A stretch of DNA of 64,000 nucleotides, from assembly GCA_964019165.1 (NCBI GenBank), contig OZ025271.1, positions 17,668,282-17,732,281 on the forward strand. Direction: 5' to 3'. The translations under genes and the position numbers were made by a program. Positions 2,120-54,602 of this stretch are shown piece after piece. The notes beneath the pieces are model-generated. The model had not been told where the DNA came from, searched no databases, and saw only the letters and a program-made list of their open reading frames with translations. This DNA comes from Mastigias papua (lineage: Eukaryota > Cnidaria > Scyphozoa > Rhizostomeae > Mastigiidae). Each line of letters starts with the position of its first letter. The first letter of the stretch is position 1.

Positions 2120-2745
2120 TTACTCATTTGTCATTGGCAGCTCGTCATTTATTTTCCGGATTACATCATTTCTATTCAATTTGCGCAAGTATTTTTTCAG
2201 AGTAAAAATAGTAGGTACGTTTTCCATGGCAACCAGGTGCCGGAACAGCTTAAAAGTTGGTCTCTCTTGTTTCACATTTGTGCTGAAACGTTCAATTTCT
2301 TTGTGATCATCGATGTAGTAGTCCGCAATATCTCTCCACGACGGAAGCTGAAAAGTGTTTTCCAACAACTTATCCGCTACATTTTCCAAAAAATAGAACC
2401 AATTTTGACCATTATTATTCAATTCTGCCAAAGTACTTTCCAACGTAAATTCAAGCTTCTTCTCTGAAATGGCTTTTTCTATAGGAGGGAAAATACTCTT
2501 GCGCTTTAAATGGAGATCATGTTCAATAAGTCTCCTTAACTCGACCAACTTGATGCCCTCTTTCGCGTGTGCTAGATTTGTAAAAAAGTTTCGAGAAGGC
2601 TCAACTGATGATAAATGTGATGCTTCTCCCATATCAAACAGGGTAGCCAGACCCTGCAAATGGACCCCAGAGCCCTGTTCCAACAAGTCTGCAATAACTG
2701 TCAGTAAGGCTCGATTATTCAGTATAAGTTCAATACCACGTTGAT
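2120..2745 (-). CDS. Terminal exon: helical region and Death domain
   Basis: Acceptor cctttctattgtag (phase 1), stop TAA at 2120-2122, about 208 residues. Seen: an N-terminal helical part with [20 protein letters not shown], similar to Death-fold linker regions; then a Death domain in the last 85 residues with [24 protein letters not shown] and the closing [13 protein letters not shown], matching the W-x-x-lA and L-x-x-x-x-R-x-DvI marks of the family. Known: Death domains bind Death partners such as RAIDD- or FADD-type adaptors. Inferred: the signalling output, released or exposed after ZU5-UPA processing. Confidence 0.9.

Positions 2746-54602: not shown

Follow-up and report, generated by a model that had tools for sequence, protein, structure and literature searches.

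A predicted HEPN–NACHT–ZU5–UPA–Death receptor gene in the scyphozoan Mastigias papua

Do exons for a HEPN domain, a NACHT NTPase, ZU5-type domains and a Death tail, all lying on one strand, belong to a single gene, or to two that are neighbors? The question is raised by the window, i.e. the whole 64,000-nucleotide stretch of Mastigias papua DNA analyzed here (contig C6:17,668,282-17,732,281 of a 347-Mb genome), whose minus strand carries these exons. Our main reading, to which we give a probability of roughly 0.8, is a single gene for a cytosolic, NLR-like receptor with the predicted order HEPN–NACHT–linker–ZU5–ZU5–(HF/S)–UPA–Death–Death; its function is likewise a prediction.

The exon chain and its domains

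Exons were read from the raw sequence. Fourteen of them, running from 54,589 to 2,120, join into a single open frame of 1,628 aa (Table 1). All 13 introns are GT..AG, and the phases agree at every junction. The first ATG, at 54,589, lies downstream of an acceptor-like site, and the stop is at 2,120. A 13-exon version of the model gives 1,608 aa; comparison with paralogues added a 60-nt exon, making 14 exons and 1,628 aa. Because the small exons were chosen with phase in view, phase agreement across them gives no valid chance figure, and there may be additional linker exons beyond the 14. An earlier note on this DNA had claimed an exact open frame of about 1,795 residues. The phase-matched chain from HEPN to the stop is borne out; that length was not reproduced, and it is the 14 exons and 1,628 aa that are supported. 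Exon 4 is the only bridge across the 18-kb interval between exons 3 and 5, which has mobile elements inside. Among the loci compared, the duplicated 66-nt exons and the 37-nt exon are found in the window only, and exon 5 gave just chance-level matches in the paralogue loci.

Table 1. Exons of the predicted receptor gene, with window positions and the evidence for each
Exon and content	Position	Strand	Evidence and remarks
Exon 1 (coding part), HEPN, aa 1-206	53971..54589	-	RNEFYGH at aa 127-133; ends in phase 1; PF18738 E 0.0018, under cut-off
Exon 2, NACHT NTPase with the region after it, aa 207-896	40948..43016	-	PF05729 E 2e-19; donor phase 0
Exon 3, 45-nt coding micro-exon (15 residues), phase 0-0	40409..40453	-	Aligned in 5 loci; pattern scan
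Exon 4, 60-nt Ser/Thr/Pro-rich linker, phase 0-0	35622..35681	-	Loci A and B keep it between NACHT and ZU5, with AG/GT and open frame
Exon 5, 66-nt linker (22 residues), phase 0-0	21835..21900	-	Splice sites and frame only
Exon 6, almost identical second copy of exon 5, phase 0-0	21343..21408	-	Splice sites and frame only
Exon 7, 50-nt linker, phase 0 to 2	20568..20617	-	Kept in loci A and D, 5' of ZU5
Exon 8, first ZU5 (ZU5a), aa 992-1102	19122..19453	-	PF00791 E 1.3e-9; 5/5 members of alignment A1 match
Exon 9, end of first ZU5 (TSFY, without HFS) and first half of second ZU5-like stretch (ZU5b1), aa 1103-1170	18645..18847	-	Colinear in 5/5 paralogue loci
Exon 10, second half of second ZU5-like stretch (ZU5b2), ending HHFS (predicted autocleavage site), aa 1171-1257	10391..10653	-	HFS in 6/7 copies; weak profile match to C12 PIDD-like gene
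Exon 11, UPA-like, aa 1258-1358	7260..7562	-	Genome matches 3' of ZU5a; without Pfam match
Exon 12, end of UPA-like region, aa 1359-1408	5240..5387	-	4/5 paralogue loci colinear; C4 without a match
Exon 13, 37-nt linker, phase 0 to 1	4940..4976	-	Splice sites and frame only
Exon 14, two probable death folds plus the stop, aa 1421-1628	2120..2745	-	Genome matches, PF00531 matches of homologues, fold match

The NACHT match stays over cut-off on the spliced 1,608-aa product, and the exon has both a Walker A (GIAGMGKS) and a Walker B motif (LFIVDGLDE). Searched against PDB sequences it gave 34 matches at E 0.01, the best of them NLR proteins and the majority named NLRP, so that the protein would be assigned to the NLR-like STAND NTPases. 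In a protein collection the exon matched 560 proteins, none of the best 120 being named. A Pfam search of the spliced protein at E 1 gave no LRR family match (divergent repeats after NACHT are possible), nor did Pfam find TRADD-N on the spliced product. A broken, partial NACHT-like stretch lies just 5' of the NACHT exon, at 43355-43717; comparable pieces are found 5' of the NACHT exon in paralogue locus D and in a further copy at 11.65 Mb on C6. The HEPN match is weaker, with E 0.042 on the spliced 1,608-aa product. Against a HEPN_DZIP3 cut-off of 27 bits the window exon scores 18.5, and the corresponding exons of paralogue B and of L036 are also under it (22.0 and 19.3), that of paralogue A being over it (29.4 bits, E 7.8e-7). 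The Rx4-6H motif of HEPN domains is present in the window as RNEFYGH, and its R and H are kept in six of the seven aligned copies.

The first ZU5 is over the Pfam cut-off on the spliced product as well as on the exon. The region that follows is called a second ZU5 and a UPA here because of its place between the ZU5 and the Death exon, the HFS where a cleavage junction would be expected, and a profile match, though a weak one (P 0.005), to a PIDD-like frame on contig C12, in which the window's HFS aligned on HFT. It has no Pfam match, a PDB profile search at E 10 was also empty, Pfam found no UPA on the spliced 1,608-aa product at E 1, and profiles of ZU5a and of the second ZU5/UPA region gave no match to each other. 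The C12 frame itself (L039 1240-2400) has two ZU5 domains, ending HFS and HFT, and its strand carries a Death match about 2.5 kb 3' of it. The second ZU5 of the family ends in HFS in six of seven copies (the window, A, B, D, E and a locus at 1.6 Mb), the exception being C4 with HYCS, and the first ends in TSFY or similar and has HFS in none of the seven. In the genome the UPA-like exon has eight matches, and each has a ZU5a exon 5' of it, within 12 kb and in the same orientation. According to the available text of PMC3210808, HF/S is where PIDD is cut, after each ZU5, and SF/S where CARD8 and NLRP1 are. Since one of the two PIDD-type sites is kept, the protein would be cut, if at all, once, like CARD8 and NLRP1.

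As a single exon, the window's last exon matches Death in Pfam at E 0.06, and on the spliced 1,608-aa product no Death match was found at E 1. A homologue of this exon that is 81% identical (P0122) has a PF00531 match over cut-off in its C half (8e-6), and another (P0129) has one in its N half (1.3e-4; 22.5 bits vs a cut-off of 22.6). A genome search with the exon gave 24 matches, and six genomic members of its family are over the Death cut-off. Its predicted fold resembles death-superfamily structures, one of five models being confident, and its N and C halves match each other weakly, in register (hhalign, P 0.012). Judged by a profile match or a six-helix fold, the exon falls in the Death domain superfamily, and it probably holds two death folds.

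How, then, does the architecture described in the earlier note fare? NACHT and the first ZU5 are firm. The HEPN head is under threshold in the window itself and passes the curated cut-off in paralogue A only, while the remainder of the proposed ZU5-ZU5-UPA module is argued from position, HFS and the PIDD-like match, Pfam and PDB profiles being silent on it. The Death domain, under cut-off in the window's own exon, gains support from P0122, from the six genomic family members and from the predicted fold.

The Death tail is unevenly distributed. Double-death exons lying within 25 kb 3' of a ZU5a exon are found only in the window, in the 11.65-Mb copy and at the 1.6-Mb locus. In the last case the exon, at 1,629,023 and 15 kb past ZU5a, is outside the stretch scanned by HMM and was seen in the genome search alone. 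Sensitive tblastn found no Death exon after the UPA exons of A, B, C4, D and E in the 5 to 21 kb searched; a Death-family HMM found none in the fetched DNA of these loci or in the fetched part of the 1.6-Mb locus, and the genome-search matches include no member of the exon family 3' of copies A, D and E on C6. Because it was not found after UPA in five paralogues, and because few Death exons are near ZU5a and none near NACHT (25 kb), the Death tail is not a fixed part of the family; copies without it may have another tail or a different end. Members of the double-death exon family also occur at C8 9.13-9.25 Mb and C23 10.33-10.38 Mb, on contigs without listed NACHT or ZU5a matches.

One gene or two

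The window exons were searched against 20 fetched stretches, comprising five paralogue loci (A, B, C4, D and E) and both flanks of the window. NACHT, ZU5a and the two exons of the second ZU5-like stretch occur in the window's order and on one strand in all five loci. The UPA-like exon is colinear in all five too (at C4 with E 1.4e-7, in the sensitive search only), and exon 12 in four. HEPN lies 5' of NACHT in A, B and C4, i.e. in all the loci where it fell inside the fetched stretch; in D and E the same strand has a HEPN match at a greater distance 5', 22 and 44 kb away. The 11.65-Mb copy on C6 has, in order, NACHT (78% identical), ZU5a (100%), ZU5b1 (100%), ZU5b2 (99%), UPA (99%), exon 12 (98%) and Death (83%), the nearest listed HEPN being 30 kb further 5' and 51% identical. 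The gene is thus one of at least seven colinear NACHT–ZU5–UPA copies within a very large HEPN/NACHT cluster. The 1.6-Mb locus on C6 (L041 396-2995, L042 932-3175) has HEPN, HEPN, ZU5a, ZU5b1 and ZU5b2 (with HFS), and no NACHT was found in the 10 kb searched between HEPN and ZU5. None of 5,526 candidates from the protein collection matched residues 950-1608 of the 13-exon product at E 0.001.

A single transcript would have to cross the interval between NACHT and ZU5, and it is mainly because of the exons that bridge this interval that we prefer one gene. With the last 66 residues of the NACHT exon as query, ten loci match, at identities down to 31%, and each of them has a GT where the exon ends, at the same codon boundary in the alignment (for L005 and L006, where the aligned part fell six residues short, after an ungapped extension; L001, L003 and L008 did not match this query). 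Past this donor, an open 45-nt micro-exon with AG/GT flanks follows in six of six ZU5-bearing loci, i.e. the window, A, B, C4, D and E. Its pattern occurs once in each of them and nowhere else in 43 sources, of which the short loci L001-L008 may end before that position. The 60-nt Ser/Thr/Pro-rich exon is common to the window, A and B, and the 50-nt exon leading into ZU5a to the window, A and D. By eye, the exon directly before ZU5 begins at an acceptor and has no in-frame start codon.

The relative direction of the domains in the genome was counted using at least 104 NACHT matches (104 of 169 candidates scored), 25 ZU5a, the best 40 of 129 HEPN and 21 of 24 Death matches, three weak pieces being excluded. 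Within 25 kb, 10 of the 25 ZU5a matches have a NACHT 5' on the same strand, and none has one 3' or on the other strand. Likewise 21 of the 40 HEPN matches have a NACHT 3' on the same strand and none 5' or on the other strand; for Death, 3 of 21 have a ZU5a 5', none has one 3' or on the other strand, and none has a NACHT. The contrast is less clean at 50 kb: NACHT is 5' of ZU5a in 16 of 25 cases and 3' in one, with none on the other strand; it is 3' of HEPN in 26 of 40 and 5' in four, again with none on the other strand; and for the 21 Death matches the counts (5', 3', other strand) are 4, 0, 0 with ZU5a and 4, 1, 0 with NACHT. On C6, 9 of 20 ZU5a matches have a NACHT within 25 kb 5'; 5,000 random draws gave 0.95 on average and never more than 6. 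Since the draws ignore family clustering, the direction contrast is the better evidence.

The main alternative is that the HEPN–NACHT part (54.6-40.4 kb) is a receptor gene of its own and the ZU5–ZU5–UPA–Death part (about 22-2 kb) an adjacent, PIDD-like one, the two having been kept together by duplication of the cluster. NACHT genes without ZU5a must indeed be common, given 25 ZU5a and at least 104 NACHT matches, and the 1.6-Mb locus has ZU5 and Death but no NACHT that could be detected; the C12 PIDD-like gene, with its two ZU5 domains and Death match, is also without a listed NACHT. Within the window, the 18-kb gap with its mobile elements, bridged by exon 4 alone, would likewise suit two genes. 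Against this stand the donor with which the NACHT exon ends in each of the ten loci matched, the in-phase coding linker exons that follow NACHT in several loci, and the acceptor, in place of a start codon, at the head of the pre-ZU5 exon; moreover, the NACHT–ZU5 gap is only 3.4 kb in locus A, and HEPN and ZU5 are less than 8 kb apart on C4. We therefore consider two genes unlikely. A single gene across the whole chain is, on these sequence grounds, strongly supported, not proven.

It could also be that the gene is a decayed or mosaic copy, in which exons of different paralogues have recombined and which is no longer expressed as a working receptor. At the DNA level, the stretch from ZU5a through UPA is about 98-99.5% identical to the 11.65-Mb copy, the surroundings of Death 92% and those of NACHT 90%, and the HEPN region matches a different locus, at 11.44 Mb, with 96% identity over 3.6 kb. 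As identity tracts differ along it, the gene is a mosaic of tracts common to different paralogues. This variation, the mobile elements in the introns and the broken NACHT-like piece just upstream of exon 2 are what one might expect of decay. However, the frame is open through all 14 exons, splice sites are GT..AG throughout, and the motifs are intact. For the NACHT exon the genome has at least 65 near-full-length copies (65 of 167 candidates scored; 63 of the 65 on C6), and 64 of the 65 listed have no internal stop. Loss of function is less probable still than two genes, and an intact single gene remains our preferred reading.

Known receptors and predicted function

The comparisons that follow hold for those parts of the cited papers that were available. 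Like NLRP1, the predicted receptor has a NACHT upstream of a putative ZU5–UPA unit, a single predicted cleavage site and a death-superfamily tail (PMC3210808), but its head is HEPN whereas that of NLRP1 is PYD (PMC11508797). It further differs from NLRP1 and CARD8 in having two ZU5-like stretches and Death instead of CARD, and no LRR family was found in it. With PIDD1 it shares its predicted ZU5–ZU5–UPA–Death order and HF/S at the second site (for two ZU5 and HF/S, see PMC3210808). PIDD is cut after each ZU5 (PMC3210808), whereas here the first site is non-HFS in 7 of 7 copies, so that by sequence the cleavage motif does not follow both ZU5 domains; HEPN and NACHT also take the place of the PIDD LRRs.

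With the HEPN_DZIP3–NACHT proteins of cnidarians and the pearl oyster the gene shares an N-terminal HEPN with Rx4-6H, the NACHT and the large clusters; the tails named for them are LRR, TPR or WD40 (oyster), and the available text describes no ZU5–UPA–Death (PMC8260672, PMC9646362). In nine cnidarian species HEPN is the commonest non-LRR partner of NACHT, and ZU5 is also among the partners (PMC8260672). DZIP3-type HEPN fused to NACHT and DEATH has been tabulated (PMC3710099). NACHT and ZU5 occur together in proteins of early animals, for which the available parts of the two sources do not state a HEPN head, second ZU5, HF/S or Death tail (PMC8260672, PMC12909245). Among the TRADD-N proteins of marine invertebrates some are fused to FIIND or UPA–ZU5 and others to HEPN, STAND NTPases or death folds, and autoproteolysis has been predicted for them (PMC8195603); they have TRADD-N at their core, whereas Pfam finds none here. 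FIIND–CARD tails are named for human and fish NLRs, and for invertebrates only NLRC and NLRD types (PMC11508797).

The full HEPN–NACHT–ZU5–ZU5–UPA–Death order was not found in the literature searched, a search mostly outside subscription papers and supplementary architecture tables. The earlier note, whose author knew of no described protein with this order, agrees with that search, but HEPN–NACHT and NACHT–ZU5 fusions were already published for cnidarians (PMC8260672). The novelty is in the full order only, as HEPN–NACHT, NACHT–ZU5 and ZU5–UPA self-cleavage are each known. A merger of the NLRP1 and PIDD plans under a HEPN head, as that note put it, still accounts best for the exon chain and for its paralogues, with the qualifications that only one of the two PIDD sites is kept and that novelty does not go beyond the full order.

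The receptor probably works like NLRP1 and PIDD. NACHT would serve as an ATP-driven switch and assembly platform, and HEPN as an RNase released for action by assembly. The second ZU5 would cut itself before the Ser of HFS, the UPA–Death–Death tail being held non-covalently until the N-terminal part is removed or rearranged; the freed tail could then cluster, recruit Death-domain partners and so signal. Such a protein would have two levels of control (NACHT assembly and ZU5–UPA self-cleavage) and two outputs (the HEPN RNase and the death-fold tail). The loss of HFS in C4, together with Death tails missing elsewhere, suggests that cleavage and the tail are not equally needed in all copies. A wider picture, which we put forward tentatively and hold to be somewhat less than an even bet, is a family of self-cleaving, RNase-headed medusozoan NLRs in which NACHT assembly fires HEPN and the HF/S cut frees UPA–Death–Death as in NLRP1 and CARD8, with heads, NACHT, ZU5–UPA and tails reshuffled between copies on one immune-gene chromosome.

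If the transcript and the cut were confirmed, a NACHT receptor outside vertebrates would be seen to free a death-fold tail once ZU5–UPA has cut itself, with this release coupled to a predicted RNase in the same chain. Natural variation among copies (HFS kept in some and lost in another, Death or NACHT undetected in others still) allows the model to be tested directly. Medusozoan NLR repertoires are described as small, NACHT–LRR being absent in six species and NACHT in two, with one hydrozoan having HEPN–NACHT (PMC8260672). At least 104 NACHT matches in a medusozoan would stand out against the repertoires in the available text of that paper, and Pfam found no LRR in the one product searched.

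The cluster and its mobile elements

C6 (18.2 Mb) has the look of an immune-gene chromosome, since 85 of the at least 104 Pfam NACHT matches and most of the 129 HEPN matches are spread along it from 0.2 to 18.1 Mb. At 10.83, 10.87 and 10.91 Mb, three equal-scoring NACHT exons with matching HEPN exons lie about 40 kb apart, and represent a recent triplication or an assembly repeat. The mitochondrial contig C172 carries cox1 and, recognized by eye, cox2 next to each other in opposite orientation; in 4.3 kb it has one tRNA, of Trp type (given as tca anticodon), and TGA is read as Trp. This agrees with the gene order ascribed to the medusozoan ancestor (PMC3519871) and makes a medusozoan source likely, not proven, for a polB search gave at least 80 matches (91 of 149 candidates scored), with C172 not among them. 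Contig C121 has five COX1 matches, four with a single TGA, vs five TGA in the animal mitochondrial contig C172; it is possibly another organism's mitochondrial DNA.

Between exons 9 and 10, at 13281-15416, is a reverse transcriptase frame with a weak GIY-YIG match and long TA repeats on either side, which we take to be Penelope-like; the 11.65-Mb copy is without the part of the window from 12.3 to 16.2 kb. In the NACHT–ZU5 interval, minus-strand frames at 24549-28350 resemble, by eye, LTR retroelement gag/pol in several frames, and at 30292-31088 two adjoining frames on the same strand as the gene match a YqaJ-like exonuclease.
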